A stretch of DNA of 35,816 nt. Origin: a virus. Position numbers and translations under genes: made by a program. The stretch spans positions 1-35,816 of IMG/VR virus record IMGVR_UViG_3300045242_000030; one strand, given 5' to 3'. Shown here piece by piece: positions 1,649 to 21,558 of the stretch (the stretch's first letter is position 1; each line of letters begins with the position of its first letter). A model generated the notes under the pieces. That model saw nothing but the letters and a program-made list of their open reading frames with translations, searched no databases and had not been told where the DNA came from.

Positions 1649-1856
1649 ACCAGTAATCCTCCGGGGTTCTGATCCAGCCCATGTGTTTTGCAAAAGGCTT
1701 TATTGCCTTCTTCCACAGCCATTCGCTGAGAAGGACAATCGACAGCACAGCCGCCGCGTACTTCCCTGCGGTCGGGAGCCAGTCGAGCCACGCGAGGCTT
1801 ACCCACGAGCCGATGCCCACGCTGGCCTTGATGACGGGGTGGTGGATGTCGTCCAT
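1641..1856 (-). CDS. Single-helix membrane protein, holin or antiholin candidate
   Basis: A 71-aa protein with one clear membrane segment around residues 33-48 (AAAVLSIVLLSEWLW) and a weaker hydrophobic stretch before it (SWVSLAWLDWL), then a basic stretch and a tryptophan-rich end. The ATG at 1856 shares one base with the TGA of the tailspike gene (TGATG); a GTG lies one codon earlier. It is the first gene of the lysis cassette after the tailspike. The small size and location suit a holin-type protein or a holin regulator. No family is recognised with confidence. Confidence 0.7.
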   Translation of the reverse strand: MDDIHHPVIKASVGIGSWVSLAWLDWLPTAGKYAAAVLSIVLLSEWLWKKAIKPFAKHMGWIRTPEDYWYD

Positions 1857-3481
1857 CACGCGCCCCAGATCACTACTTGAACGATGTCGTCCGCTGCTGC
1901 GTCGGTGCTTCGGTTGAACGCCTTGAACCGACACGTAGTCGCGGAGGCTCCAGCACTGGTGACGTAGGTCGTCTGCCCGGTTGCGATGACGCAAGCAGTC
2001 GTGGCGCCTGTCGCAAGGTTCGTACTGAACGTCAGCGTCACATCGCCCGTACCGTTGCGGGTGAGGCCGAGACCAGGATCAGACGAGGAGACAATCGTCC
2101 CGCTTGAGGCGGTGTTGATGATTGCCCACCCCTTCGGGACCAATGCTGCGGAGTACGTCGTGTCTAGGTACTTGAGCGGGTCGGAGGCGTTGCCCGAGAT
2201 GCGGCAGTCCTTGAAGACGTGCAGGTTCAGCGCCGCGCCGGTGGGGAGATGGGCCGAGGTCGTCGCAGACTTGTAGGTGAAAGCCGCCGAGCCGGTAACG
2301 ATGTCTGCGTCTTCCACCAAGAGCGGCGCGTCGTCGGTGGCGCGGAACATCGCCGACCCCGATGGCATCGCGCCACCGTTGTACTGACCGCCGACGATCT
2401 TCATCCGTCCCCGACTCTGGTTGAAGTCGAAAAGGGACGTTGCGTGTACCGAGCCCTCGGTGTAGCAATTCAGGAGCAGCGTGTTCTGGACGTTGCTGCA
2501 AAAGAGATTGCGTCCGTTGTTCGTGAAGTCGCAGTTCACGAATGTCAGAATCATCCCGTTGTCGAAGTGAACGGCGTCTACCGTGGTCCCGCCGTTGAAG
2601 AACTTGCAGCGGGTGAACAGGTTGACGTTTGTGTTATTCCCGCCTCCGTGTACGGATACGACCGCCTGGAAATTGGCGTTCGCTGCCGTCTGGTTGAAGT
2701 AGCCGAACGTGCAGTCCTCTGCGTCGAGATAGATCAGGTTCGCATTGATGCCCGTTGCGAGATCAGCCTCGAAATGGACGTTCCGGAGCGTGAGTCCAGA
2801 GAGATAGTTGGTGTACCCGCCCCCTCCATCAGTGATCCCCTGTCCTCCCGCGCCGCCTAGGCGAAGGTTCTCGATCAGAGGGTTCTCGCTGCCGCCGACA
2901 ATATCGAAGACCGAGCCAGGAATCGTGTTGCGGATGATCGTGCCTACCCCCTCCTCTCCGGTGAGATGCGAGGTGGATTGGAGCTCCACGAAACTAGTGA
3001 TCTTGTAGAACGTGGGCGGCTTCGGGAAGAACACCGTCTTGCGGGTATCCACAGCCGCCTGGATCGCCGCCGTATCGTCGGTCGTCCCGTCACCCTTGGC
3101 GCCGAAATCAACGACGCTCACGGTGTCGCGGAGCTTGTCCTGTACCGTTCGTGGTACAGCCCCAGAGCCGGCTTGGAGGAAGCCGATCAGCGAAGCACCA
3201 CCCGAGCCGAGGAAGTCGCCCGTCACGTTATCGACGTCGTAAATGACGACCGCCGAGGCGTCCTTCAGGATCATCCGGTAGGAGGCTGTGCCGAGATAGA
3301 CGCTGGCCTGCCCGTCTGCATCGCAGAGCACGGGGTTGCTGTTGGGCGATCCCCCGCCCTGGTCCGTGTAGGTGGCGAGCGGAGTCAGCCCACCAGCGGC
3401 GTAGGTGAAGAGCTGCGCGCCGGGAACGACACCCCCTGCGTTGATCGCCTGGAAGATGCCGCCATTGAAAAGTACAGCCAT
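1856..3481 (-). CDS. Tailspike with pectate-lyase-like beta-helix
   Basis: A 541-aa receptor-binding or depolymerase protein at the P22 gene 9 position, after the ejection genes. Residues 1-90 (MAVLFNGGIF, then ADGQASVYLG and YRMILKDA) look like the head-binding domain shared by podovirus tailspikes. At 118-145 comes the linker and first turn typical of pectate-lyase-3 spikes, VVDFGAKGDGTTDDTAAIQ. A long Asn/Gly-rich repetitive region consistent with a right-handed beta-helix fills 150-430, and a small beta domain closes the protein, perhaps for trimer assembly. It probably binds and may cleave a host surface polysaccharide; no catalytic residues can be assigned by eye. A terminator-like hairpin ends 16 bases before its ATG, so its expression may be controlled separately. 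Confidence 0.92.
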   Translation of the reverse strand: MAVLFNGGIFQAINAGGVVPGAQLFTYAAGGLTPLATYTDQGGGSPNSNPVLCDADGQASVYLGTASYRMILKDASAVVIYDVDNVTGDFLGSGGASLIGFLQAGSGAVPRTVQDKLRDTVSVVDFGAKGDGTTDDTAAIQAAVDTRKTVFFPKPPTFYKITSFVELQSTSHLTGEEGVGTIIRNTIPGSVFDIVGGSENPLIENLRLGGAGGQGITDGGGGYTNYLSGLTLRNVHFEADLATGINANLIYLDAEDCTFGYFNQTAANANFQAVVSVHGGGNNTNVNLFTRCKFFNGGTTVDAVHFDNGMILTFVNCDFTNNGRNLFCSNVQNTLLLNCYTEGSVHATSLFDFNQSRGRMKIVGGQYNGGAMPSGSAMFRATDDAPLLVEDADIVTGSAAFTYKSATTSAHLPTGAALNLHVFKDCRISGNASDPLKYLDTTYSAALVPKGWAIINTASSGTIVSSSDPGLGLTRNGTGDVTLTFSTNLATGATTACVIATGQTTYVTSAGASATTCRFKAFNRSTDAAADDIVQVVIWGA

Positions 3482-3496
3482 GGGTGCCTTGAAATG

Positions 3497-3517
3497 AAAA
3501 AGGCTCCCGGAGGAGCC
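3497..3517 (-). terminator. Intrinsic terminator or attenuator just before the tailspike gene
   Basis: Read on the minus strand: a 6-bp perfect stem GGCTCC/GGAGCC (3512-3517 with 3502-3507), a TCCG tetraloop, then five T (3501-3497). This is a compact rho-independent terminator. It lies after the gene ending at 3599 and only 16 bases before the tailspike ATG, so it would cut off late transcription before the tailspike unless antiterminated. Confidence 0.75.
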
Positions 3518-3528
3518 ATAATGGATGC

Positions 3529-3666
3529 GTGGAGTACGTCTGGGTCTACTTCTGGGGCGCGGTCGGTTACCTCGTCCTAGCCTTCATCTACGGCTTCCTC
3601 AGGGCGATTGCTGCGCGCCGGCACGAGGCAGAGCGCGAAAGGCCGCAGGCCCGGCGAGCGCGTTAA
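3529..3666 (+). CDS. Tiny plus-strand membrane protein between ejection and tailspike genes
   Basis: A 45-aa reading frame opposite to all neighbours, from a GTG at 3529 to a TAA at 3664-3666. It encodes one strong membrane segment (VWVYFWGAVGYLVLAFIYGF) followed by a basic tail (RAIAARRHEAERERPQARRAR), so the C-terminus should stay in the cytoplasm. Nearly every codon of the first half ends in C or G. A GGAGGAG lies 13 bases before the GTG, inside the terminator hairpin. The last 68 bases are antisense to the end of the 494-aa gene. In P22 the interval between gene 16 and gene 9 holds plus-type accessory genes such as sieA (inner-membrane superinfection exclusion), so a similar accessory role is a reasonable inference. 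No homologue recognised. Confidence 0.5.
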   Translation: MEYVWVYFWGAVGYLVLAFIYGFLRAIAARRHEAERERPQARRAR

Positions 3667-5083
3667 GCTGGGGCGCGTTCTGCACCGCCGAGTTGATCGC
3701 TCGAGCGGCCAGGGACTTGAATGCCGCGCTCCTGTCCGCCATGAACGCCAGCATCCCAGCAGGGTTGTGAGCCAGAGAGGCTAGCCCCAGCGGGTTCTTG
3801 TTCGCGTCCAGCAGCACCCGCCTCTCCGTAACGTCGAGCGTCGAGAGCAGCCGGGACTCCTCTGCGTTCCACGGCCCGACCTCTGGGACGGCTGTCGAAA
3901 TCTCGTCCTTCAGGCCCCGGGCCAGGGCTTTCTGGGCTTCTGTCGATGCGCTTCCCTGCTCCCCGTACTTGCCCCGGAGCACGTTGTAAGTCCCCGTCTT
4001 CAGGTCTTGAGCCTGTTGCACGGGGATCGCGTCACCAGCCGGCAGCGAAGGATGGTTCATGAAGTCCGCCCCGGCGCCGGCAATGGCATCCGTGTCAGCG
4101 GTCGGGCTGACCTGGTTGCTGAACTTCTCCAGCGTGCCCTTGAGGGCATTGAGCACCTTCGTCTTGCTGACCGTGGCGTCTGATGCGCTGATCGCTCCCG
4201 ACACCTTGTCGTTCAGGTCCGAGATCAAGCCTTGCAGCTTGTTGACGCCCGCCTTCGTGGGGTTGATGCCGTAGTCAAGGAGCGTCTGCACTGCGGTGTC
4301 CGCCTGCCCACTCGAGCGCTGCGCCAGGGTCGGCTTTAGCGCGCTCTGCATCAGCCACTTGGCGAACTCCTCGCTCTTGTCTGCGAGAGCACCACCAGCG
4401 GCCCCCACGACCTTCAGGGCGCCCGGGAGAGCGCCGCCGATAGCAACACCGGTCCCTGCGCTTCCGGGGTCTACAAGCCCAACCTGAGTGCCGCCCGCAA
4501 CCGCGCCAGCGCCAGTACGAAGAGCAAGATTGCCCGCAGCCGCCGCGAGCCCGGGGGCAGCAGCAGTGCCAGTAGTAAGCCCGTTCGACGCAAGCGCACT
4601 GACAACCTCCGGGGCCGCGCCGACCATCTTGGCGCCGCCCGCGAGGACGCCACCCGCACCAGCCGTTCCGGCGCCCTCGGCCGTGAGTTTACCCAGCTTG
4701 TACTCGGTGGACGTGGGATCGGCGCCGAGGTTCTGCGTGGCGTCGGTCATCGCCTGCCGTCTGTCTGTCCTGCCGATGCCGGTGATGTTGTTGGGGTCCG
4801 CACCGAGCGCGCGAGCGGCAGCGTCTACCGGAGTCAGGAGCGTGGCACCGATAGAGCCAGCACCACGAATCGCACCCATCCCCGCGTTGTAGACGCCACG
4901 CAGGGACATCCCGCCGAGCGACGGGCTCCGCATGTCCAGCACGGAATCCAGGGCGGACGGCTGTTGAGGCTGTAGCCCCGACACATCGTGGCCGTTCGCC
5001 TGCAACTTCGCCACCAGATCGGCACGACTCATCCCATCGGGCACGCCTTGGATGACGGTCCCATCTGGCATCTGAACGTCCAT
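3599..5083 (-). CDS. Internal virion / DNA ejection protein (gp16 position)
   Basis: A 494-aa protein. The N-terminus, MPDGTVIQGVPDGMSRADL, is a short beta/helix motif found at the start of many phage internal or structural proteins. Residues 60-230 are very rich in Ala and Gly with several weakly hydrophobic segments, as expected for a protein that leaves the capsid and inserts in or crosses the cell envelope. The C-terminal half is helical. It follows two other ejection-type genes and precedes the tailspike, the place of P22 gene 16. The ATG at 5083 directly abuts the TAG of the upstream gene. Family similarity is inferred from composition and order, not from a strong motif. Confidence 0.75.
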   Translation of the reverse strand: MDVQMPDGTVIQGVPDGMSRADLVAKLQANGHDVSGLQPQQPSALDSVLDMRSPSLGGMSLRGVYNAGMGAIRGAGSIGATLLTPVDAAARALGADPNNITGIGRTDRRQAMTDATQNLGADPTSTEYKLGKLTAEGAGTAGAGGVLAGGAKMVGAAPEVVSALASNGLTTGTAAAPGLAAAAGNLALRTGAGAVAGGTQVGLVDPGSAGTGVAIGGALPGALKVVGAAGGALADKSEEFAKWLMQSALKPTLAQRSSGQADTAVQTLLDYGINPTKAGVNKLQGLISDLNDKVSGAISASDATVSKTKVLNALKGTLEKFSNQVSPTADTDAIAGAGADFMNHPSLPAGDAIPVQQAQDLKTGTYNVLRGKYGEQGSASTEAQKALARGLKDEISTAVPEVGPWNAEESRLLSTLDVTERRVLLDANKNPLGLASLAHNPAGMLAFMADRSAAFKSLAARAINSAVQNAPQLNALAGPAAFRALPRAGAQQSP

Positions 5084-7737: not shown

Positions 7738-8205
7738 TTACTCTCCACCAGCCCCACCGCCCGGCGATTCGACCGGGGGAGGAGGGGTAACTTCTTGTCT
7801 GACGAGGACCACCGGAGGGACAGCCGCGACACTCGTCAAGCCCTGGACGACTTGTCTCAAAGCTTCGAGGGATTGGGCGTTCGCGGCGTTCTGCTGGTCC
7901 TGTGTGGCCGTCACTTGGGCCTGCACCGAAGATATCTGCGAGGTCAACTGGCTTTGCGTCACCACCTCTGGTAGAGATGGAAAAGCCGCCCCGCCGAGCT
8001 TTCTCGCACCGAGGTCCTTGATGTGGCCCCACCAGTCGTCATTGATCATCACCGGCTTGGTCTTGTCGCCGTTGATGTAGCCGATTGGAACTCCGGGATG
8101 CGGTCTCCACTTCTTCTTGACTGGAGCCGTGACCAGCGCAATCGTGGCCGTACTCGCCCCTCGCAGCGGGAGGAGTGCCGCGAACGTCGTGGAGGTCGTT
8201 GCCAT
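7738..8205 (-). CDS. Tail-associated protein with coiled-coil, unknown function
   Basis: A 155-aa protein. Residues 25-75 hold a compact segment with GVPIGYINGDKT and INDDWWGHIKDLG; residues 80-120 form a Gln-rich helical stretch likely to be a coiled coil; the tail is Pro/Gly-rich (TPPPPVESPGGGAGGE). Its ATG shares one base with the previous stop (TGATG) and its stop abuts the next start, so it is embedded in the late operon between a beta-rich tail protein and the ejection genes. The position is that of the P22 needle and gp14 genes, and the coiled coil would suit a tail-needle-like or assembly protein, but I do not recognise the family. Confidence 0.75.
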   Translation of the reverse strand: MATTSTTFAALLPLRGASTATIALVTAPVKKKWRPHPGVPIGYINGDKTKPVMINDDWWGHIKDLGARKLGGAAFPSLPEVVTQSQLTSQISSVQAQVTATQDQQNAANAQSLEALRQVVQGLTSVAAVPPVVLVRQEVTPPPPVESPGGGAGGE

Positions 8206-8786
8206 CAGTCAGGGACAGAAAGCGAGCCAGCGGTGACGGTATGTGTCCCTTGTACCGAGTGGACTTGTTCTGTAATCGCAACCACCCAACAACCTGAACC
8301 AGCACCAGAGGAGAGGTCGAGAGCCGTCCCACCCGAAGTCGCAGCTACAGCGAAGGTGTCCGTCAGGGCATCCCTTACGAAGTAAGTCACGCCCTCGGTA
8401 ATCCCCCCAGGAGGCGCCCCGAAGAAGACGATCTTCTGCGTGTCCGAGTACCCGTGTCCCGTGGCGTAGACAAGATCGAGGGACGGACTGACCACGAAGT
8501 TCTTATACAGGCCCCCACCGTTGGGGATGGCGAACTTGAACGAACCCGCGCCCCAGACTCCAATCCACTTGATCGTGCAGGCCGGAACGTCGAAGGCCAC
8601 GGAGGCATTGAGAAGACGCGCCCCACCGCTCGAGGCGTTGAACGTCGCAGCTTCTCTCGCGTAGGCAGGAGAGCCACCCGTCACCTCGCTCGCGCCCGTG
8701 GTGCCGGGATAGTCGGTGTGCAGGGACAACTGATCCATGATCACGCCGTCGAGGGCTTGATTCTTTGCTACGGTCGCGAACGTCAT
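8205..8786 (-). CDS. Beta-rich minor structural protein
   Basis: A 193-aa protein, probably mostly beta strand. It opens with MTFATVAKNQALDGV and contains DYPGTTGASEVTGG and a repeat-like segment GITEGVTYFVRDALTDTFAVA, a pattern I know from small phage tail or fibre-associated proteins. No enzyme motif or signal peptide. It overlaps the gp10-like gene by four bases upstream (ATGA) and the next gene by one base. It follows the head-tail connector and precedes the ejection genes, so it is probably part of the tail machine. Confidence 0.78.
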   Translation of the reverse strand: MTFATVAKNQALDGVIMDQLSLHTDYPGTTGASEVTGGSPAYAREAATFNASSGGARLLNASVAFDVPACTIKWIGVWGAGSFKFAIPNGGGLYKNFVVSPSLDLVYATGHGYSDTQKIVFFGAPPGGITEGVTYFVRDALTDTFAVAATSGGTALDLSSGAGSGCWVVAITEQVHSVQGTHTVTAGSLSVPD

Positions 8787-10168
8787 GACCTACCCTGCGC
8801 GCTCTCGAGTTGAGCATCCACGATGTCGAAACGTGCGTTCCCGGTGAAGCGCACCTTCCAGGCACGGTGTTTCGACCGCCCCAACATGCGCCAGATCAGG
8901 ACCGCGAACTTCTCCCCCACCCGTCCGAGTTCCTGGACGATGGGGTTAGACCACGACTTCCCGGAGTTGTCCGTCCACGAGAGCTCGACCAGCGGGATCT
9001 CGCCCTGCGGTGTTTCCCCGGTCGTGCAGTTCAGGTGGAAGGCTCCGTAGAACGTCCAGCCCATCGAGTCGTAGTACGGAGAGATCCGTTCCCGTACCAG
9101 CGGGTCGCCCGCCTTCTGATGAACGTCGCTGTCCAGGGCGTATACCTTGCCGTCCGAAGCCCCCAGCAGGTGCTTCCCGAAGGCAGACGAATGACACACC
9201 GCCCGATCCGGGGTGAACTGACCCACCCCGTCCAGATCGACTCGCTCGTGCCACTCCCCGGCCCTGATTTCATAGACCCACGTAGACGTTAGACCGGGCG
9301 CATTGAGGGCATAGAAGGTCGCGCCGTTCTCCTGGTAGCAGTAGGCGTTGGCCTCCGAGACATCCGAAGCCTGTAGGGCCTCCTCCACAGCCACGTTGCT
9401 GATCCGCACCGCCTGGTATCCGTTCAGGCGATAGACGACTCCGACCCCGTTTCTGTCCTGTCCGACCCAGAAGGCAGAGTTGTCAACTGCGCGAACAGAG
9501 TGGGGAGCCATGCAGCCCACTTCGATGGTAGTTCCCTCTCTCTCGAAGGGAAAGAGAGCCGCCCCGGAGTTGAACCAGACCTCTGTACTCGTCTGCCCGA
9601 GGAGGATCACCCGCCTCTGGACAGCCACGATCCCCACGAGGTCGTCAGGCTGGCTCTCCGCGGTGGCGAAGTCGAGGGGGTCTTCCGTGGTCGCGTCGTT
9701 GATCCCGGAGATGTAGAACTGTCCCGTACCGGGTCGCCTGAAGAAGAAGTAATTGTCCGAAAAGCAGACCGTCTCCGAGCCGTAGAAGCCCGGGGAATCG
9801 ATCTGGGTAAATGTGTTCGTCGCGAGGGAAAGGACGTACCCGTTGGGACCGTCCACGATGACCAGTTGGCTGATCCCGTACGCCATCTCCACGACGCCCG
9901 AGGAGGTCTGGAGCACACCCCGATTCGTCGCTACGCCGTTGCTGTCTAGCTCATAGAGTGAGCCACCCGCCACGAAGAACACCCGGTCGTTGGTCGCCAG
10001 CGTCCCACGGACCACGGACCCGAGATCGGCGAAGACCGTATACCCGGGGACGGATTGGAGAACCGCCCCCTTCTCTGCGCCCTCGAGTGGGACGAGATAC
10101 ATCCCCACCGTCCGCTCGATGGACGCCTTCTTGAGCGCCAGCGAGTACGACGAGCCGAGGAAGTTCAC
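8783..10168 (-). CDS. gp10-like packaged-DNA stabilisation / tail accessory factor
   Basis: A 461-aa protein made of repeated beta-strand units that suggest a propeller. It resembles the P22 gp10 family in length (P22 gp10 is about 472 aa), in repeated segments such as LVIVDGPNGYVLSL, FYISGINDATT and STEVWFNSG, and in position after the gp4-like gene. In P22, gp10 joins gp4 under the portal to close the filled head and forms the platform for needle and spikes. I choose the GTG at 10168 because it overlaps the upstream TGA by four bases (GTGA) and reads MNFLGSSYSL; longer versions begin inside the upstream coding sequence. Family assignment is from memory of the pattern. Confidence 0.82.
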   Translation of the reverse strand: MNFLGSSYSLALKKASIERTVGMYLVPLEGAEKGAVLQSVPGYTVFADLGSVVRGTLATNDRVFFVAGGSLYELDSNGVATNRGVLQTSSGVVEMAYGISQLVIVDGPNGYVLSLATNTFTQIDSPGFYGSETVCFSDNYFFFRRPGTGQFYISGINDATTEDPLDFATAESQPDDLVGIVAVQRRVILLGQTSTEVWFNSGAALFPFEREGTTIEVGCMAPHSVRAVDNSAFWVGQDRNGVGVVYRLNGYQAVRISNVAVEEALQASDVSEANAYCYQENGATFYALNAPGLTSTWVYEIRAGEWHERVDLDGVGQFTPDRAVCHSSAFGKHLLGASDGKVYALDSDVHQKAGDPLVRERISPYYDSMGWTFYGAFHLNCTTGETPQGEIPLVELSWTDNSGKSWSNPIVQELGRVGEKFAVLIWRMLGRSKHRAWKVRFTGNARFDIVDAQLESAQGRS

Positions 10169-10527
10169 TTTTGCCGCCACAGCGCCCGCGCCATCTTGCA
10201 GTTCCTGCCGTCGTAGTCCTTGGAGCACTCCTCAGCGACGACCTCGCACATCTTCTTTCCAGCATCGATGAAGACGAAGTAGTCCTCAGCCTGGAACCGC
10301 CCAACTCCTGCGACAAGAATCCCGTTCGGATAGAGGAGCTTGAAAGCCGCTATACGTTCATCCCTGGTCCCGATTGGCACCCTGTTCCCCATTCCTTCGA
10401 CCCGACAGCCGTTCGCCATCGCGTCACGGCACTCCCTGACCATATGAGCTATGAGGTCGCGTTGTTCGGGGGTTGCGGGGGCGGCTTGTGCCAGGCTGAC
10501 GAACAGGAGCAGCAGGAGTGCTTTCAC
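10165..10527 (-). CDS. Secreted cysteine-rich protein of unknown function
   Basis: A 120-aa protein with a textbook signal peptide, MKALLLLLFVSLAQA, probably cleaved before APATPEQ. The mature part has five cysteines (33, 41, 94, 101, 110) that could form disulfides in the periplasm. It is wedged between the G8-domain gene and the gp10-like gene and overlaps both by four bases. A secreted soluble protein is unusual inside a tail-gene block, where products normally assemble in the cytoplasm. It could act on the envelope late in infection, block a second phage, or inhibit a host periplasmic enzyme. No family recognised. Confidence 0.75.
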   Translation of the reverse strand: MKALLLLLFVSLAQAAPATPEQRDLIAHMVRECRDAMANGCRVEGMGNRVPIGTRDERIAAFKLLYPNGILVAGVGRFQAEDYFVFIDAGKKMCEVVAEECSKDYDGRNCKMARALWRQK

Positions 10528-13493
10528 TGGCGGACCTCGAGGGCGAAGTTGTAGTCCTCGGTCTGGCTGTAGTTGCCGACCGTGACCTGATTGAAGGGAC
10601 CCGAGGGCTGGAACAGCTTCACCCAGAGGACGTTATTGGTCGTGTCCCGCCAGTAAGCCGTCGTCACCGAGGCAAGCAGGATCGCTTTCGATGCAGCAGA
10701 GGGAACCGCCGTACCCGTCCCAGCGGTGTAGATGTTGGAGGGGATGACGCCTACGCTCGTCAGGGGCGCGGCATTCGCCCACGGGAGACCGACATAGACG
10801 AAATCCGCTACGTTGTCGAATCCCTTGATGAACTGATATCGCCCGCGCTTGATTGCGTGAGTCGTGGAGGGCATCGTGAACCGCACCGCCCCACCAATCG
10901 GAATCGAGCAGATGCCCCCGGGGAAGTTCTGCCCCCCCGTGGGGTCGGTGTCATACGTCGCCAGCGAAACATCCGCGAGAGCTGTCGTGTCCACCCGCTG
11001 CCAGAGGATGCGGTCCCGGGAGATGTCGTTCGGAACCGTGTCGATGGGACCAATCCCCGCATTGCTGCCGAGGTTGTCCATCGGATAGATACCGATCTGC
11101 TGCGTCGTCGCGGCGCGCATGCCGATGGGGATTCCGTTCGCCGTCAGGGCTGTGGTCGTCTGCCCCGTCGTGAAGAAGGGCATGTCCGGGATGCAGGTAA
11201 TCCCAGCCCCCGCATTGAACATTGTCCCCCAATGGTCATAGAACGCAGTGCACATCGCGTTCCACGGGGAGCCGTTGAACATCGAGCCACCCGACCATGT
11301 ATTGAATGGCGGAAGGTTCTGGATGTTCGGGCCCGGCGTCATGTACATCGCAAAGCCGACCCCAATCCTCCAGTTGGTGAAGTCCTTGGAGAAACTGAAA
11401 TAAGGCTGCGTGTAATTATCGAATCCGCCGAAGAAGCAGCGCATCCACAGATGGCTCCGCGCATCCCGCCCGAGGGGAGCGGGAGTGGTCGGTGCGTACC
11501 CGATGGCCGTCAGGTCGCGGATGTGGAAAGTCCCGTGGTAGGAGACCGCGCCGTTCGGAATGCCGTAGTCCACCCCCTCGTCGTTGAGCGACTTCTCGAT
11601 GAAGGTAAATCCAGTCCCCGAGCCGAACTGCGTCGTCCCGTGCAGCGAGAAGCCGAAGTTGTCGGCGAACCGAAACCCGGTATAGACGGGGATGTAGACG
11701 GTGTGGTGGTAGCCACTCCCCGACCCGAAGGTAATGGCTCCCCCGCCGTTCTTCCAATAGAAGTCGTTGCTCTGGACCCAGGGGACCTCGGGGCCACCCA
11801 TCGTTCCATCGGAGGTGGGACGGAGCTTGCCCGGGCTTCCGAGGTTTCCCTCCTCATCGGCTTGGGAGAGAAGCCCTTCCCGACCATGGACCCGGCCGCT
11901 GTGGCCCTCGTTGCTGTCCCACGTCAGGGGCGCGTAAGCCTCGGGGAAGATGTTGACCTTCGAACTGACGCCCCAGCAAGCGGCGGTGGCGCCGGAGGTG
12001 CTCGTTCGCGAGATCGAATTCCAGATTCCAGGTCCAACCGTATCCCCGCAGACGTTGCGGTTCACGTTGTTGTTCATGTTGGTGATCCAGATCCCCGCGG
12101 GGCCCTGGAGATCGTCCCAACTAAACGTCCCATCGTGCTTCTTGATCCGATAGCCTCTGGGTGCATAGGCAATCTGTGCCGGGGTGTCTCCCGTGCCCGG
12201 GTCGTTGGTCCTGTAGACCCGACAGTCCTCGAGCGTGTTCAGCATCTCCGAGGCGTCCTCGAAGAAGAACGCATGCCCGTAGATGTTCCACGCATAGCAG
12301 CGACGAACCTGAACGCCCCGACAGCCGTGGAGGGTCACGGCCCGGTTCATGCTGTTGGTAAACGTGCAGTCCTGAATGACCGCATTCCCTGCGGGATAGT
12401 CCCCCAGTACCGCCCCGGTGGCGATGACATAGCTCGTCATGTGGAAGTGGAAGGGATACCTCCCCTGCAATCCACCTTGGCCGGCGTTGTCCCACTGGAC
12501 GCCCTGGAGAATGATGACGCTCGTCGGGGCACCAGATCCCTGCATCACCATGTCGTGAGAGCCGAACCGTTTGTTCGTGAGCTCGGCGTCGTTGAATCCC
12601 TGGACCTTGTGCCTGCGGGAGACGTGGAGAACACGCGCTCTCTGATCCAGTGTCGCGGGGATGTTCGTGGTGGCTCTCAGTCCTCCCGTCCCGGTCGTGA
12701 ACCCCGTGGAAGCGTCTACGGTCAGGGTGTTGTTGTCGTTGAGGTACTGGACCTTCGCCCAACGCGAAAACCCAAGGCCGGGAGTGATCGTGACACTAGC
12801 GAGCCCGTTCGTGTCCGCGACGACGGTGAACTTCTCCGTCCGGTGAGTTACGGGATCGATGTAAAAGCCTGTAGGGCCGATGATGATCTGGTCCCCCGCC
12901 TTCCAGTCCACGCCCCTGTCGAGGGGGATGACCGTGGTCCCGTTCGGCAGCGAGTTGGGTCCACCGATGGCCGAGAGGTTTACCCGTGCCTCGGTGACCG
13001 AGGGGACGAAGCCGTAAATCTTGTACTGAAAGCCATCGGACATCAGGAAGCCGCGAATGGCTCCCGCCGATCCGTTGATGCCCCCCGAGTCGCCTGGATA
13101 GCTCGCAGTCGGCGTGTTTCCAGAGTGCGACGGCCCAGGGTTGTTCCCAACGAGAGCCGTCCCGTACATCGTCCGCGTATGGACGCGAAGGTTCGGGGTC
13201 GAGGAGGTGCCCGAGAGATAACGACCCGTGCTCGAGCCGATGAGCTGCTGCACGCGAAGCTCGGTGTCTACCGACGTGGAGACGATCAGGTCTCCCGAGA
13301 TCGTGAGGCTGTTGAGGATCGGCGTCGTGACATCGAGGACGACGGCCGTCCCATGAGGAATCGTGATGTTGTCGCCGGCCAGCGGGAGAGATCCACCCCA
13401 CGTCGCCGGGTCCGACCACAGCGTTCCCGTGGGAGGAGGTGGCGGAGGAGGAGCGACCGGAGGTGGCCGCTTGTGGTTCCCGGAGAGAAGCAT
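10524..13493 (-). CDS. G8-domain, CEMIP/TMEM2-like beta-helix tail protein (putative polysaccharide depolymerase)
   Basis: A 989-aa protein. After a short basic start and a polyproline linker (residues 10-21), a G8 domain begins at about 26: WSDPATWGG, AGDNITIPHGTAVVLDV and LTISGDL. Further on come segments that match, in order, landmarks of animal CEMIP (KIAA1199) and TMEM2: GRYPFHFHM (344-352), NRAVTLHG (383-390), GHAFFFEDASE (406-416), IWITNMNNNVNRN (468-480) and a late LWVKLFQP. Those proteins carry a G8 domain and a right-handed beta-helix and depolymerise hyaluronan. Here it sits among tail genes, so I infer a capsule- or glycan-degrading adhesin. Start chosen at 13493, where TGATG links it to the fibre gene; an ATG at 13541 would lie inside that gene. 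It lacks an obvious virion-binding N-terminal domain. Confidence 0.85.
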   Translation of the reverse strand: MLLSGNHKRPPPVAPPPPPPPTGTLWSDPATWGGSLPLAGDNITIPHGTAVVLDVTTPILNSLTISGDLIVSTSVDTELRVQQLIGSSTGRYLSGTSSTPNLRVHTRTMYGTALVGNNPGPSHSGNTPTASYPGDSGGINGSAGAIRGFLMSDGFQYKIYGFVPSVTEARVNLSAIGGPNSLPNGTTVIPLDRGVDWKAGDQIIIGPTGFYIDPVTHRTEKFTVVADTNGLASVTITPGLGFSRWAKVQYLNDNNTLTVDASTGFTTGTGGLRATTNIPATLDQRARVLHVSRRHKVQGFNDAELTNKRFGSHDMVMQGSGAPTSVIILQGVQWDNAGQGGLQGRYPFHFHMTSYVIATGAVLGDYPAGNAVIQDCTFTNSMNRAVTLHGCRGVQVRRCYAWNIYGHAFFFEDASEMLNTLEDCRVYRTNDPGTGDTPAQIAYAPRGYRIKKHDGTFSWDDLQGPAGIWITNMNNNVNRNVCGDTVGPGIWNSISRTSTSGATAACWGVSSKVNIFPEAYAPLTWDSNEGHSGRVHGREGLLSQADEEGNLGSPGKLRPTSDGTMGGPEVPWVQSNDFYWKNGGGAITFGSGSGYHHTVYIPVYTGFRFADNFGFSLHGTTQFGSGTGFTFIEKSLNDEGVDYGIPNGAVSYHGTFHIRDLTAIGYAPTTPAPLGRDARSHLWMRCFFGGFDNYTQPYFSFSKDFTNWRIGVGFAMYMTPGPNIQNLPPFNTWSGGSMFNGSPWNAMCTAFYDHWGTMFNAGAGITCIPDMPFFTTGQTTTALTANGIPIGMRAATTQQIGIYPMDNLGSNAGIGPIDTVPNDISRDRILWQRVDTTALADVSLATYDTDPTGGQNFPGGICSIPIGGAVRFTMPSTTHAIKRGRYQFIKGFDNVADFVYVGLPWANAAPLTSVGVIPSNIYTAGTGTAVPSAASKAILLASVTTAYWRDTTNNVLWVKLFQPSGPFNQVTVGNYSQTEDYNFALEVRQ

Positions 13494-15214
13494 CAGGAGC
13501 CCACGTCGTACCGGATGGCTTGCAGGAAGATCGGAACCCAACGACCAGCGGTGCCCGTCTCGAGATCGACCGTGAGCGTTCCGCCTGTCGTCGGGCGGTA
13601 GCTGATGACCCGATCAAACGGGCTGATCCCGAACTGGTGCGTATTGGTGAAGGTCTCCACCAGAGGACCCGCGCTCCCATCGCTGAGGGTGCAAGTCAGG
13701 CGACCGACCGTGACCGTGCTTGCTGCGGGCTCGTCGGAGTCTTCGTAGAAGCCGAACACCAGGCCGAGCTTGCTGAGAACACCCGTGGTGGACGTGACCG
13801 TGAAGCGAATCCTCGTGGTCCCCGCCTCGGTGGTGACGTTGTACGAGAATGCGTGGTCCCCGTCTCCGTTCGCGGCTCCAAAATCGTTCTCGGCCAGCGT
13901 GAACGGCGTGGTGTAGGAGGTTCCCGCATAGTCGGAACTGATCGAGGTAACACTGCCCCGTGTGAGGTTCGTGAGCGAAAGCGTTCCGATTGCCGTCCCG
14001 CCCGTCTTGCCGGCGTTGTCTCCTCCGTCTACGTAGCCCCAATCGCTTGCCCCGACGAGGGTCATCGCGGCGGCACCGAAAGGAGCGCTGCTCAAGACCG
14101 GAGAACCGCCCCCACCCCCCGCAGGGATCGGGATCGTGTTGGTCGTGAACGTCGTGGGCGTGAAGGTGCAGCCGATGGAGTGGCTGGCGTCACCCGAGAC
14201 GAGGAGGTACGTGCTCGCGGTCGCGCTCGAGATGTTCGAGCCGTCGCGCGTCCACTGGAAAGTCCCGGTCCAACCAGAGGCAGGAGTACAGGTCAGCGTC
14301 GAACCGACCGTTGCACTACCAGTGACCGTGGCGAGCGTGAAAGTCCCGCCCCCTCCTCCGCTGTTGCTCGGAATGGCTGAACGCCAGGCACTCCCATTCC
14401 ACTCAAAGCCGCCGATCTCGTTCGGATTAAGCGTGAGCTTGTAGCCTGTGGCAGCAGACGCTCCGGTGAACGTCATCACCCCACTCGCACCCGCGTGGGT
14501 GACGGTGATGAACGTCCCGTTGGTGGGAGAGCCACCGGCGCTGATCGGGAAGGTGGTATCGAGGGTGCCGTGCCAGAAGTTGGCGCGGTCGCCGTTGTTG
14601 GCCGCCGTCAGCGTTACCGTCCCCGTGCCGAGATCGACTGCACCGAGGATGTCCGCCTTGAGGGCAATTGCAGCCGCCTGGAGCGTGCTGACGGGCTTGT
14701 CCGTGTCTGCGGTGTTATCGACACTCCCGAGCCCGACGTGGACCTTGGTGACACCGGAAACGGTGCCGGTGAAGACGGGGCTTGCCGTGGGAGCTTTGGC
14801 GTTCAGGGCCGCTTGTTGGGCTGCGCTGACGGGCTTGGAGTTGTCCGAAGTGTTGTCTACGTTCGCAAGTCCGACCGTCGTCTTGGTGATCCCCGAGACG
14901 GTGCCGGTGAACGTCGGGTTCGCGGTCGGAGCCTTCGCCGCAAGAGCGGCAGACAAGGGCGCGTTGGTCGTCGGCAAAGGAACGGTGGACGAGTCCGTCA
15001 GATCGACGTATCTCGATGCGCCTCCACCACCACCACCCGTGCCCGTGACGTAACCCAAGAGGTTCCACGTAGTTACGCCGTCACCGATCTTGAGCTTGTT
15101 GGTGTCGGTCTCGAAGCCCTGCTGTCCCGCCAGGAGAACCGGGTTCTGGGTGGCCCATGCGGCAGCGGTCTTGTTGGCGATCTGGATCGGGCCATGAATG
15201 GCTGCGGTGCTCAT
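13493..15214 (-). CDS. Tail fibre with tropism-type N-terminus, tandem repeats and Ig-like domain
   Basis: A 573-aa modular fibre. Residues 20-55 hold the short beta motif common at the start of phage fibres (LLAGQQGFETDTNKLKIGDG, TTWNLLGY), then a poly-Gly linker. Two 46-residue repeats follow at 96-141 and 142-187, each with PTFTGTVSG or PVFTGTVSG, VGL and VDNT, as in many phage fibre shafts. Residues 291-357 form an Ig-like domain (TLTCTPASGWTGTFQW, VSGDASHSIGCTFTPT). A Gly linker leads to a C-terminal beta domain of about 200 residues, the likely receptor-binding tip. It overlaps the gp4-like gene by four bases and the G8 gene by one. It may anchor the G8 protein to the virion (inference). 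Confidence 0.88.
   Translation of the reverse strand: MSTAAIHGPIQIANKTAAAWATQNPVLLAGQQGFETDTNKLKIGDGVTTWNLLGYVTGTGGGGGGASRYVDLTDSSTVPLPTTNAPLSAALAAKAPTANPTFTGTVSGITKTTVGLANVDNTSDNSKPVSAAQQAALNAKAPTASPVFTGTVSGVTKVHVGLGSVDNTADTDKPVSTLQAAAIALKADILGAVDLGTGTVTLTAANNGDRANFWHGTLDTTFPISAGGSPTNGTFITVTHAGASGVMTFTGASAATGYKLTLNPNEIGGFEWNGSAWRSAIPSNSGGGGGTFTLATVTGSATVGSTLTCTPASGWTGTFQWTRDGSNISSATASTYLLVSGDASHSIGCTFTPTTFTTNTIPIPAGGGGGSPVLSSAPFGAAAMTLVGASDWGYVDGGDNAGKTGGTAIGTLSLTNLTRGSVTSISSDYAGTSYTTPFTLAENDFGAANGDGDHAFSYNVTTEAGTTRIRFTVTSTTGVLSKLGLVFGFYEDSDEPAASTVTVGRLTCTLSDGSAGPLVETFTNTHQFGISPFDRVISYRPTTGGTLTVDLETGTAGRWVPIFLQAIRYDVGS
14654..14929. repeat. Two tandem 138-bp coding repeats in the fibre gene
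   Basis: Two consecutive 46-codon units (14929-14792 and 14791-14654, read on the minus strand) encode near-identical fibre-shaft modules sharing FTGTVSG, TK, VGL and VDNT. They probably arose by internal duplication and could change number by recombination. Confidence 0.75.
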
Positions 15215-15921
15215 GTGTTGTCGATTGCGCCGTCGTAGTTGTCGCCGGAGAAGCCCGGGGGATAGAGGGAGCCACCAGCGGACTCGTAGCCCTCGAGTTG
15301 CGGGGTGACGTGGTTGCTACGCTTGAGCACCCGTCTCGCCCTCAAGGCTCTCTGCTCGAGCGTGGGAGGAAGAGGCCGGGAGAAGTCGTCCGCGAGGTCT
15401 TCGGCCAGGGAAAGCTGAAGACATCTCCTCGTGCCCGGCCTCAGCACAACGTCGGTATTGAGGGAGGTGAACTCCGAGAGCCGGCTGTACACCCCGACGT
15501 GGATCTCCACATGGGAGGGGACCGGGTAGAGAGAGAAGATGCCCGACCCGTCGTCGTAGTAACCGACCCGAGGCCATGGCCCTAGAACGCTCTTGAGCGA
15601 GATCGAGGCGAACTCGTCGTAGTTCACCAGGTCTATCTGGCGGTCAATGTTGGAGAAACGCGCGAAGGCGTGTTCCAGTCTCAAAGGCACGAAGGGGACG
15701 ACGATGGTCCCCGTGGGTCCGATGGTGATCGTGGAAGCCGTCGCAAACCCGCTGTATTCGTTCGTGGAGAACGCATAGAGCGATTCGATGGCCCACGCAT
15801 CGAGCATGTCGTTCAGGCGCTCGAGGCCGAGTTGCGCCTCTTCGGGACCGAGGCTCTGCCCCGCCTGCTTGACGCCGATGATGCTCAGGGCACTCTCGAC
15901 TATGGTTCGCGCGGTGGTCAT
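15211..15921 (-). CDS. gp4-like head completion / tail accessory factor
   Basis: A 236-aa protein. The N-terminal helices (MTTARTIVESALSIIGV, then EEAQLGLERLNDMLDAWAIE) are the hallmark of the P22 gp4-type head-completion family, which binds under the portal and starts tail assembly. The remainder is beta-rich, with FARFSNIDRQIDLVNYDEF and a late stretch rich in Arg. P22 gp4 is shorter (about 166 aa). It overlaps the glycosyltransferase gene by four bases (ATGA at 15921-15918) and the fibre gene by four. It is encoded after the coat gene, as in P22. I am fairly sure of the family. Confidence 0.85.
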   Translation of the reverse strand: MTTARTIVESALSIIGVKQAGQSLGPEEAQLGLERLNDMLDAWAIESLYAFSTNEYSGFATASTITIGPTGTIVVPFVPLRLEHAFARFSNIDRQIDLVNYDEFASISLKSVLGPWPRVGYYDDGSGIFSLYPVPSHVEIHVGVYSRLSEFTSLNTDVVLRPGTRRCLQLSLAEDLADDFSRPLPPTLEQRALRARRVLKRSNHVTPQLEGYESAGGSLYPPGFSGDNYDGAIDNT

Positions 15922-16631
15922 ACGTAGGTCGTGTTCTCGTCACACACGGGCGAGTCGGACTCGGAGCCCCCCGCTTGGCGCAGGAGGTAGTTGTGGAAGT
16001 TCCCGGGAAAGACTGCGGTCGGCGTGTGGTGGTTGATCTGGAGCTTGGGAAGAATCCAGATGTCTCCACACTTCTCGTTCCAGTTCCGGCTGAACGCGTA
16101 GTCCTCGCCGTACCAGATTCCCTTGTGCACCCCGTGGTTGAAGAGGTCCACGCACAAGGTCCCCTGCTCCAGATACTGAAGTTCGGGATAGAAATACATG
16201 AAGCGATTGATCCCCGCGCGCGTGATGCGAAGGAATCCCGCAGGAATCGTTGCCGCCCGCACCGCACCATCGGCGCGGACCTGGGGCTTCCCGTCAATGC
16301 CCGCAAAGAGCGCCCCCATGTACTCTTCCGGCCCATTCTTGAACCGGTAAGTACCCGCGACGACATCGCCCTCCGCATGGAGCAGTGACAGCATGTCCTC
16401 GGGGCGCCACGAAACGTCGTGGTCGATGAAGACGATGGCGTCGGCGTTCACCGCCAGGGCTTTGCGGAGCATGTTGGCTCTCGCAGCCGAGATGTAGGGG
16501 CATCCGACCTCGTAGACGGATGCGTCCTCCCACCCCGCCTCGTTCAAAAGCGGGAGGGAGGCTTGCAGGCTGTCTAAGCAAACCTGATACGGTCGGGTGA
16601 TCGTGGGTATGCAGAAGACAACCTTCTTCAT
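15918..16631 (-). CDS. GT-A-type glycosyltransferase inside the head-tail gene block
   Basis: A 237-aa enzyme expected to transfer a sugar from a nucleotide-sugar donor. The start MKKVVFCIPTITRPY is the first strand of a GT-A Rossmann-like fold. The metal-binding DxD motif is DHD at residues 70-72 (IVFIDHDVSWRPEDM). A GEDYAF segment at 175-180 matches the acidic catalytic or acceptor motif of GT2-like enzymes, and a late His pair (201-202) may help bind metal. No membrane segment, so it acts in the cytoplasm. It sits between a small head protein and the gp4-like gene, overlapping both neighbours, which suggests a virion protein as target; host polysaccharide modification is the alternative. 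Confidence 0.88.
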   Translation of the reverse strand: MKKVVFCIPTITRPYQVCLDSLQASLPLLNEAGWEDASVYEVGCPYISAARANMLRKALAVNADAIVFIDHDVSWRPEDMLSLLHAEGDVVAGTYRFKNGPEEYMGALFAGIDGKPQVRADGAVRAATIPAGFLRITRAGINRFMYFYPELQYLEQGTLCVDLFNHGVHKGIWYGEDYAFSRNWNEKCGDIWILPKLQINHHTPTAVFPGNFHNYLLRQAGGSESDSPVCDENTTYV

Positions 16632-16867
16632 CAGCTCGTAGCCCAGACGCCCAAGCCGATCAGCGTGTTCTGGATCTCCTGGATCGTCGCGAGTTGAGTC
16701 GCGCCGAAGGAGGCAGAAGTCGCTTGTGCGCTCGTGGCGTGAACCGCCGAGCTGTAGGGACGCTGAACGACTGGAACCGCGCCGTAGAAGGCAATCTTCT
16801 CCAGCGGGCCCTGCGCGATGATCGCGCCGTCAGGGCTGTTGTAGGTAACTTGCTCGTATGAGGCCAT
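16631..16867 (-). CDS. Small head-associated protein (decoration or head-fibre type)
   Basis: A 78-aa protein directly after the coat gene. It has the N-terminal pattern NSPDGAIIAQGPLEKIAFYGAVPVV-type (residues 10-34), followed by an Ala/Ser/Thr-rich stretch and a helix TIQEIQNTLIGLGVW. I know this layout from many small phage proteins in which a beta motif (SPDG, FYG, PVVQR) is followed by a short trimeric helix; they are usually placed next to the coat gene and are thought to decorate heads. Preceded by GAAAGAGAGAC as a purine-rich ribosome site, and separated from the coat gene by a strong hairpin. Its stop shares one base with the glycosyltransferase start. Confidence 0.75.
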   Translation of the reverse strand: MASYEQVTYNSPDGAIIAQGPLEKIAFYGAVPVVQRPYSSAVHATSAQATSASFGATQLATIQEIQNTLIGLGVWATS

Positions 16868-16889
16868 GTCTCTCTTTCAGAAGTTGGAA

Positions 16890-16911
16890 GACAGGGGCCG
16901 AAGCCCCCGTC
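16890..16911 (-). terminator. Strong hairpin after the coat gene (weak terminator or mRNA stabiliser)
   Basis: On the minus strand GGGGC-TTCG-GCCCC forms a stem with the very stable UUCG loop, extended by GAC/GTC across a G-T wobble. It lies 5 bases after the coat stop. Only a poor T run follows, so it may protect the 3' end of coat mRNA or reduce read-through rather than stop transcription fully. Confidence 0.55.
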
Positions 16912-16915
16912 AAGA

Positions 16916-18154
16916 TCACGAAGCGGCAGCGCCCACCATGCGGCAAGCCCACTCCGGACGGAGCGAGGCGAAGCCGTAGAGGATGTCGATACGCATCAGT
17001 TGCTCGTCGTTGCGGATGTCCGACGCTTGCCAGACGCGCATGGACAGACCGTCCTGAACCCGGCGCACGCACTTGGAGGCGTCGTCCATGATCGGCAGGT
17101 CTGCCGTCACGAACTGGAAAGCCTCTTTGTGGTACATCAGGCCCATCGGGTAGTTCGTGCTGGCCGAACCAACGAACGTCAGCGTTGCGCTGTTGAACGT
17201 GGTCGTGGTCAGGAGCGCACCCGCCGACGAGCACACGTTCTGCCTCGGACCCGACAGGTAGATCGTCGGGCTGACCGTGGACAGGCTCGCGCCAATCGCC
17301 GTGATGGTGAACTGCTGGAGCGCCGGATAGGCCGCCTTGGTCTCCGGATGACAGGCGTAGACGCCCGCAATCGTGAAGACCTCGCCAACCGTCTGCGCCG
17401 CCACGGCAACCGTGGTGTGCATGTCGATGGTGTTGTACGAACCATCAGCCGCAGCCGTACCCAGACCCGTCGAGTCCGTGGTGCCGGTCACGTCCGAGCC
17501 GTTCGCCATCGTCCAGATGCGCTCGTTCTCGTAGTAGTCCGCCATCGCGGTCCGGGCTACCAGACCTTCGGTGAACTGCTTGGAGATCGCGCCGCTCGGG
17601 TTGAAGTACGCAGCCATGCCGTTCACCAGCCCGGCCATCGTCCCCGAGTCGAACTGGATCGCGCGGTTCTGGTCCTTCGGGGCAAGGCCGCGGTTCAGCT
17701 TGGTACGCGCATCACCGGGGACCTGGAGCGTGGTGATCGCAGTACCAGCCGTGCCAGCGACGTTGTAGGTCGCCTTGGTCGATGCCGCGAGGTAGTCCGA
17801 CTCAATGCCCGAGACGAGCGTCTTCACGGCCGGCTCGATATAGCGCGTCGAGAAGTCATCGATGGACAGGGCGAGTTCAACGGAGTTGAAGCGCATGTCC
17901 ACGTGATCCTGCGTCGCGACAGTGATCGACTGGCTGACTTCGGACTGGTCCTGCACGTCCATGACGCGCGAGCCTTTGGTACGGGTGTACTGGTTGGGCT
18001 TGCGAACACGGAGGGCGGTGCCGATCTTTGCACCAGTGCGACCGAACGAGTCGTCGTACTGACGGTCGGTGGTTGCGATGAAAGCGCAAGACTCGTGCGC
18101 AACGCGCAGAACCTCGCGGGTGACCATGTCAATGGTCAAGACTGAGTTAGCCAC
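16916..18154 (-). CDS. Major capsid protein, P22 coat-like
   Basis: A 412-aa coat protein. The N-terminus MANSVLTIDMVTREVLRVAH is characteristic of the P22 coat family (HK97 fold with an inserted domain; P22 coat is 430 aa). Other landmarks are RVRKPNQYTRTKGS near 52-65, HVDMRFNSVELALSIDDF near 84-101, and a C-terminal RIDILYGFASLRPEWACRM. The order scaffold then coat, 9 bases apart, is that of P22. A stem-loop follows the stop. It should be the most abundant late product. Family assignment is strong from pattern and context. Confidence 0.93.
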   Translation of the reverse strand: MANSVLTIDMVTREVLRVAHESCAFIATTDRQYDDSFGRTGAKIGTALRVRKPNQYTRTKGSRVMDVQDQSEVSQSITVATQDHVDMRFNSVELALSIDDFSTRYIEPAVKTLVSGIESDYLAASTKATYNVAGTAGTAITTLQVPGDARTKLNRGLAPKDQNRAIQFDSGTMAGLVNGMAAYFNPSGAISKQFTEGLVARTAMADYYENERIWTMANGSDVTGTTDSTGLGTAAADGSYNTIDMHTTVAVAAQTVGEVFTIAGVYACHPETKAAYPALQQFTITAIGASLSTVSPTIYLSGPRQNVCSSAGALLTTTTFNSATLTFVGSASTNYPMGLMYHKEAFQFVTADLPIMDDASKCVRRVQDGLSMRVWQASDIRNDEQLMRIDILYGFASLRPEWACRMVGAAAS

Positions 18155-20772: not shown

Positions 20773-21558
20773 TTACTGGAGCGGGTTTTGGAAGAACGGG
20801 CCACCAGAGCCGAGTCCTGAGAGACCACCGGGGCGAAAGAACCCGCCAGCCGGAGCGTTGAAGAGGGTCGAGAACCAGTCGTTCGATCCGTCCCCGTGCA
20901 GGGACTGCATCTCCGCAAGGCTGAGTGCCTTGTTGAAGCAGGCCATGACGTGGTAGTTGCCCGGAGCATTTCCTAGCCCCGTCTTGCCGCCGAACGAGTT
21001 CGGAATGAATTGGCCCGGGAAGTCCGAGTCCGTGGCTGTGCCGTCCGATGCGAGGGAGCCAGACTCCAATCCGTAGTAGATGGTCTTCTGTCCACCCGCT
21101 ACGTAATTGCCGCCGTAGGAGAACTTCGTCGTTCCGTTCGTCGGGAGCGCCGTACCACCGGCTTGCTTCGTCGCGCCCGAGAAAATCCACGTTCCCGAAC
21201 TCGAGGCGCTTGCCCGACCTAGACCCCGGTCGTCGCCCGTGCCGTCGTAGATCGAGTACATGTACCCACCAGCACCTGTGCCCACCGTCATCCCGGAGCA
21301 GGCGCAGAAGAGGCCAACACCCGGCGCGGTGAAACTCATCGTCGGACCCGTCACCACGCTGATCGGCGTCACGCTGGAGTTGGTCGTGAAGTAACCCCGC
21401 GAGTTACCCTTCCATGTCCCGGAGCCACGGGTCACCCCTGAATCAATCGTGAGGGTCAGGTTGGAGACGAACTCCTTGATCGTGGTCCCGTCACTGTCTA
21501 CAGCGATGCACAGCGTCAGGTTGGTCGCAATGCCGGAGGATTTGAGGGTATAGCTCAT
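20773..21558 (-). CDS. LamG/concanavalin-like lectin domain protein
   Basis: A 261-aa beta-sandwich protein. The C-terminal FNKALSLAEMQSLHGDG is the terminal signature of LamG/ConA-like domains (asparagine or tyrosine-Lys-Ala-Leu-Ser plus a short helix), and the alternating Gly/Ser/Thr strands before it, including YMYSIYDGTG and TKFSYGGNYVAGG, fit such a fold. It would bind carbohydrate or another surface ligand. The ATG at 21558 overlaps the stop of the 902-aa adhesin by four bases, so the two are probably made together. Probable virion adhesin; domain type moderately certain. Confidence 0.75.
   Translation of the reverse strand: MSYTLKSSGIATNLTLCIAVDSDGTTIKEFVSNLTLTIDSGVTRGSGTWKGNSRGYFTTNSSVTPISVVTGPTMSFTAPGVGLFCACSGMTVGTGAGGYMYSIYDGTGDDRGLGRASASSSGTWIFSGATKQAGGTALPTNGTTKFSYGGNYVAGGQKTIYYGLESGSLASDGTATDSDFPGQFIPNSFGGKTGLGNAPGNYHVMACFNKALSLAEMQSLHGDGSNDWFSTLFNAPAGGFFRPGGLSGLGSGGPFFQNPLQ

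Follow-up and report, generated by a model that had tools for sequence, protein, structure and literature searches.

Does a phage gene whose product belongs with human TMEM2 and CEMIP encode a tail-borne enzyme against glycans, and, if it does, is hyaluronan the target? This question is raised by IMG/VR virus record IMGVR_UViG_3300045242_000030, the full 35,816 bases of which are here called the window. A sequence-only reading had described a frame of 989 amino acids at exactly 10524-13493 as a phage tail gene encoding a G8-domain protein, and that frame stands at those positions; its strand, which had not been stated, is the minus strand, with an ATG start. A plus-strand frame of 1027 amino acids over the same stretch was regarded as antisense, in keeping with high-GC DNA. 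Judged from its sequence, the gene represents a real, recurrent, and phage-adapted branch of the G8/CEMIP family, which is carried in tail modules and paired with a gene for an exported protein. Its best reading is a virion-borne glycan depolymerase with a periplasmic partner, to which we give a probability of roughly 0.52.

The phage protein is a TMEM2/CEMIP-type beta-helix that lacks the lectin-like domains

Membership in the G8/CEMIP family, as had been proposed, is upheld by two Pfam models that match in the expected order and above their cut-offs. In a hidden Markov model (HMM) search, the G8 domain (PF10162; residues 31-111, the first turns of the beta-helix; 13161..13403, minus strand) scores 43.1 bits against a cut-off of 22.9, and CEMIP_beta-hel (PF24606; residues 310-536; 11886..12566, minus strand) scores 122.5 bits against a cut-off of 27.3. 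All of the landmarks that the sequence-only reading had singled out (WSDPATWGG, AGDNITIPHG, GRYPFHFHM, RAVTLHG, GHAFFFEDASE, NMNNNVNRN, and LWVKLFQP) are present in that order. The order agrees with that of TMEM2 in a profile alignment to PDB entry 8c6i, a comparison that left out CEMIP itself. When the single protein sequence was searched against all PDB sequences, TMEM2 (8c6i) was the sole match (E = 2.1e-14), and a profile built from 26 relatives matched the same entry at E = 1.6e-150.

The predicted structure points the same way. An AlphaFold2 model of the G8 protein has a mean predicted local distance difference test (pLDDT) score of 67.5, with residues 30-540 mostly at 80-97 except in loops. 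Compared with TMEM2, as the sequence-only reading had suggested, the model aligns over 733 residues with a Z score of 31.2 and a root mean square deviation of 4.5 Å, and the next structures follow at Z scores of 17-19.5 (AlgG, AlgE4, NosD, and phage tailspikes). As modeled, the resemblance to TMEM2 is far above chance or generic beta-helix likeness. Phage tailspikes and capsule depolymerases are among the further fold matches, and those of P22, Sf6, CBA120, and the Klebsiella K1 lyase share with the G8 protein a right-handed beta-helix and a tail gene neighborhood; they differ from it in their weaker fold match (Z of about 17-18 versus 31) and in having no G8 or CEMIP signature.

The phage protein and its human relatives TMEM2 (CEMIP2) and CEMIP are alike in the G8 turns, the CEMIP beta-helix, the domain X region, and the order of an H-x-H/H/H/E set of residues discussed below. 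They are not alike in their lectin parts. The part of TMEM2 that the profile alignment jumps, chain positions 167-334 (residues 249-416), includes lectin-like domain 1: profile positions 165 and 170 flank TMEM2 chain positions 166 and 335, leaving domain 1 without a counterpart. The domain is absent from the family, and hence so are R265, D273, and D286 (TMEM2 numbering). No C-terminal lectin-like domain 2 was found in the family either, as the profile match stops at chain position 1064 of 1301, and the structural alignment of the model reaches only TMEM2 residue 1156 of 1381. Residues ~560-989 of the phage protein (10527..11816, minus strand) have a partial counterpart in domain X and the last part of the TMEM2 beta-helix in the model and profile alignment, much of this at low model confidence. 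On these alignments, the phage protein is a beta-helix with a domain X region and without the lectin parts; it also differs from TMEM2 in being phage encoded and in having no membrane anchor or signal.

Conserved histidines and a glutamate mark a candidate active or metal site

Conservation in relatives and in TMEM2 points to a candidate active or metal site at H349, H351, H389, (H407), and E412 (12258..12449, minus strand). H349, H351, H389, and E412 do not vary among the 26 aligned relatives. The GRYPxHFH pattern had been used to retrieve these relatives, which biases conservation at that place, and the count was redone on 25 sequences retrieved with an HMM. In this set, which holds many near relatives and one protein twice, the same four residues are constant, while G344 is replaced by A in 17 and F350 by W in 18 of the 25. 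Among the viral copies introduced below, H-x-H reads HAH in L099 and HWH in L098, and H407 is a glutamine in L013.

The equivalents in TMEM2 are H550, H552, H585, H603 (for H407), and E608, where the numbering, obtained by adding 82 to the chain index, was verified with the unpaired Cys554 described in the TMEM2 paper (PMC10206443). That paper detected no activity and was unable to name an active site. In the model, with strands at 348-351, 386-389, and 409-411, H349/H351, H389, and E412 follow one another from turn to turn, each in the equivalent strand or immediately behind it. The strand positions suggest that the conserved residues form a ladder on one face of the helix. This H-x-H/H/E ladder, kept in phages, bacteria, and TMEM2, is our candidate for an active or metal site.

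Related genes recur in several phages and form a single clade

The sequence-only reading knew of no described phage system with this fold, and we found none: no PHROG and no GenBank phage record matched. NCBIfam also gave no match to the G8 protein. tblastn searches of GenBank phages returned no G8 relative, their matches being only to an inserted tail fiber domain (with the L013 copy as query) or to an N-terminal SLH region (with a bacterial copy as query). Although a back-translated scan of viral contigs with the single protein recovered no relative, motif patterns and the alignment did, and across 2.9 million IMG/VR viral contigs these scans identified five further viral copies (L003/L011, L004/L012, L008/L013, L098, and L099). 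Viral contigs L005, L006, L007, and L009, whose GRYPxHFH proteins are much more distant, were left aside.

Phage terminase, portal, capsid, or tail genes are present on L003, L004/L012, L008/L013, and L099, and tail or capsid genes neighbor the G8 gene in L003, L008, L012, and L099. L099 encodes a major tail protein, and its packaging genes belong to other PHROGs, so that carriers of the G8 gene include phages of more than one kind. Trees place the four complete signal-less phage proteins in a single clade (support, 99/93), and likewise all six viral proteins once L098 and L099 are added (98/87). Adjoining the viral clade with support of 100/100 are two proteins from Deinococcales metagenome-assembled genomes (L014 and L015) and one from a Vitreoscilla plasmid. 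TMEM2 falls elsewhere among bacterial proteins, a placement that is not firm because it was represented by a fragment only.

Bacterial relatives above the cut-off occur in 38 of 111 Deinococcota genomes and in 4 of 274 Gammaproteobacteria genomes (the seed genome counted in), and are also held by Planctomycetota and others. About one-third of the sampled Deinococcota thus have at least one CEMIP_beta-hel gene, and the Deinococcales genome of L015 (G001) has five. Bacterial G8 proteins (Deinococcota, Planctomycetota, and Pseudomonadota) belong to the same family and show long-range similarity to the phage protein, from which they differ in mostly having a signal peptide or lipobox, in their chromosomal neighbors, and in having no partner gene in the genomes tested. 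On a Croceibacterium plasmid (L059), a TonB-dependent receptor gene and two DUF6152 genes lie between two G8 genes, an arrangement that may give a clue to the substrate or a metal.

A small exported protein is paired with the signal-less phage copies

While the sequence-only reading was right about a tail gene of the TMEM2-type family, it overlooked a conserved small gene next to it. This gene (10165..10527, minus strand; 120 amino acids) overlaps the G8 gene in a GTGA, encodes a signal peptide and five conserved cysteines, and has homologues in L011, L012, and L013. In each of the four signal-less copies that could be tested (the window, L011, L012, and L013), it lies directly downstream of the G8 gene, with a junction that is a 4-nucleotide overlap in the window and in L011, a 1-nucleotide gap from the likely start codon in L012, and a 1-nucleotide overlap in L013. 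The partner proteins are ~101-120 amino acids long, share the five cysteines, and, judged by eye, all have the hydrophobic N termini typical of signal peptides. Their mature parts are homologous: for three pairs, 0 of 5,000 shuffles reached the observed score.

In a mutual BLAST comparison of the four contigs, the G8 gene and its partner were the only pair common to all. The upstream genes are not homologous among the four phages and so fall outside the conserved pair. Between L011 and L013, the partner is 93% and the G8 protein 64% identical; because few other genes are common to these two, the G8 gene and partner seem to move together. The partner was not found in seven bacterial genomes with G8 genes, in L098, or in L099, whose contig ends inside the G8 gene. 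In L098, the G8 gene (1918-4629) is followed within a few bases by a small lipoprotein-like gene (4633-5013) that is unrelated to the five-cysteine partner.

A specific motif scan of the viral contigs for the partner matched only L003 and L008. A wider search for relatives gave 599 pattern matches, none of them confirmed, and missed three known copies, so that its negative outcome is not to be trusted. The partner has no Pfam, PHROG, or PDB match. Its model, built from four sequences only, is predicted to be helical (mean pLDDT, 78.9) and has no fold match. By these comparisons, the partner is a new, previously unnoticed, putatively exported protein of no known family or fold that is paired with the G8 gene.

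The closest analogue that we can offer is Spackle of phage T4, which acts in the periplasm to block the tail lysozyme (gp5) of later phages (PMC7677548). Like Spackle, the partner would be small, exported, helical by prediction, and cysteine bearing, although the two differ in cysteine pattern and share no significant sequence or fold match. Homology between them was considered and found unsupported: the sequence match reaches an E value of only 0.2 and is confined to the signal-peptide region in one copy, and no fold match appeared.

The G8 protein is likely part of the virion

The placement of the gene among tail and structural genes, as had been claimed, holds: it lies between adaptor and fiber genes on one side and the head closure gene Hc3 on the other. 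The G8 gene overlaps both of its neighbors, by 1 nucleotide on the fiber side (TGATG) and by 4 nucleotides on the partner side (GTGA), as in a phage late operon. The upstream neighbor (13493..15214, minus strand) encodes a 573-amino-acid fiber-type protein with an Mtd_N virion domain (Pfam, PHROG). In all five contigs available for comparison (the window, L003, L012, L013, and L099), the last 1 or 4 nucleotides of a large fiber- or tail-type gene are shared with the G8 gene.

Signal peptides of the G8 proteins were judged by simple hydropathy and by eye. Bacterial copies mostly start with a signal peptide or lipobox, whereas the window, L011, L012, and L013 copies have a short basic or proline-rich start without a hydrophobic segment; with L099, in which no clear signal is seen, this makes five of the six viral copies without a clear secretion signal. 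The L013 copy carries an insert of ~75 residues that is also found in tail fiber proteins of Rhizobium, Sinorhizobium, and Leptospira phages. The L011 copy contains the same insert domain, as does the gene upstream of the L011/L003 copy, at 61.7% identity. By eye, it also seems to occur in a tailspike downstream of the G8 cassette in L012 (13860-15935).

Because of the signal-less copies, the coupling to fiber or tail genes, and the tail fiber insert, we infer that the G8 protein is likely part of the virion.

Alternative roles and the case for a depolymerase

The genes at 15214-13493, 13493-10524, and 10527-10165 (minus strand) form a start/stop-coupled late cassette. Its first gene supplies a fiber with a virion-attachment domain, and its second a minimal TMEM2/CEMIP-type right-handed beta-helix that has no secretion signal. 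If the protein is a virion-borne depolymerase, this beta-helix would most likely be mounted as a tail appendage, with or through the fiber. There it would bind and cleave a polysaccharide of the host envelope, capsule, or slime, with the chemistry taking place at the H349/H351/H389/E412 ladder. The third gene encodes a small disulfide-type protein with a signal for export to the periplasm, where its role would be tied to the G8 protein; it may block that protein at superinfection or protect the producing cell.

Several observations weigh against this proposal. The G8 protein has no PHROG match at E 0.1, and no virion-anchor domain was recognized in the window's copy with Pfam or PHROG. Residues 669-893 of the model are mostly below 50 pLDDT, leaving the C-terminal third largely at low confidence. 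The L098 copy has a signal peptide and is probably exported instead, and a further tailspike-like gene (1856-3481) is present in the phage. Finally, the status of TMEM2 as an enzyme is disputed (against, PMC10206443 and PMC10276149; for, PMC10474455), so the fold could be that of a binder only.

Gene neighborhoods in related phages bear on these readings. In Rhodoferax phage P26218 and phage DSL-LC05, the adaptor-type gene is followed directly by Hc3, leaving the slot empty, and in MW202573, an unrelated gene of 679 amino acids stands between the two; the content of the G8 slot thus varies among relatives. The cassette itself also changes its position within the late region from phage to phage.

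The alternative that survives best is a virion-borne, noncatalytic appendage, a receptor-binding protein whose beta-helix recognizes a surface glycan. Two studies saw no hyaluronidase activity of TMEM2 (PMC10206443, PMC10276149), and a variable slot beside a fiber gene would suit such a role. However, H349, H351, H389, and E412 are conserved from phages and bacteria to TMEM2, as would be expected for a chemical or metal site but not for a changing receptor-binding face, and we consider a pure binder unlikely.

Somewhat less probable again is a cargo gene, the product of which is made late, stays outside the virion, and is freed at lysis as a soluble depolymerase of extracellular polysaccharide that aids the spread of progeny. 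The lack of both an anchor domain and a signal peptide would fit, as would the shifting position of the cassette and the filling of the slot by an unrelated gene in MW202573. What argues against it is that the gene is tightly coupled to a fiber or tail-type gene in each of the five contigs and that two copies contain an inserted tail fiber domain.

A true depolymerase of hyaluronan or a hyaluronan-like capsule, as the sequence-only reading had proposed from the family name and TMEM2 fold, is very improbable, since the absent lectin-like domain 1 carries R265, D273, and D286 and all reported activity-killing mutations of TMEM2 (PMC10206443), residues reported as needed for hyaluronan degradation, and since the relatives are bacterial with no hyaluronan tie seen.

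Beyond the depolymerase reading itself, we can picture a mobile phage module in which a virion TMEM2-type enzyme, keeping the minimal H-x-H/H/E site of the whole TMEM2/CEMIP family, is joined to a cognate exported inhibitor that excludes phages with the same enzyme. Such a module would follow a Spackle-like logic with unrelated proteins; we offer it as a speculative extension that is doubtful as a whole.

Other features of the window

On the minus strand, the order of genes is terminase, P22-like portal, coat, adaptor, Mtd_N fiber, G8 gene, small gene, Hc3, DNA ejection protein, and a tailspike-like gene, an order that indicates a P22-like podovirus. The portal and Hc3 are nearest to phages of Pseudomonadota and uncultured phages; the nearest named portal relatives infect Pseudomonadota, and no host assignment was reached. 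The tail adaptor gene (15211..15921, minus strand) matches the SU10 adaptor under the Pfam cut-off and phrog_12985, and Hc3, a head closure or packaged-DNA stabilization protein (8783..10228, minus strand), is recognized by Pfam and PHROG. The phage hyaluronidases of PHROG 2332 and 38417 are comparable to the G8 protein in being phage proteins called hyaluronidase; the G8 protein matches neither, and only the neighboring fiber has an N-terminal stretch in common with them.

The tailspike-like gene at 1856-3481 (minus strand) encodes a second beta-helix protein with an N terminus similar to colanidase and tailspike PHROGs, giving this phage two candidate glycan-acting proteins. At 8205-8786 (minus strand), a chimeric protein of 193 amino acids combines an N-terminal part of head-protein PHROG 240 with a C-terminal part in common with tail fiber PHROG 9370. 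A 902-amino-acid protein between portal and scaffold (21555-24263, minus strand) resembles a major tail protein over no more than a short stretch (residues 41-122), and phage DSL-LC05 has a tailspike at a comparable place. In MW202573 (L060), the nearest GenBank relative, the 679-amino-acid protein of the slot (15617-17656) is annotated as a DNA repair protein, an annotation that looks doubtful.

Implications for phages and for the TMEM2/CEMIP family

For phages, these results widen the range of beta-helices in use by one of the G8 type. For the family at large, the ladder hints at where the active site of human TMEM2/CEMIP may lie. A phage and bacterial family that keeps the ladder without the lectin parts also provides a small, soluble, bacterially made protein with which to test whether TMEM2 and CEMIP are enzymes.

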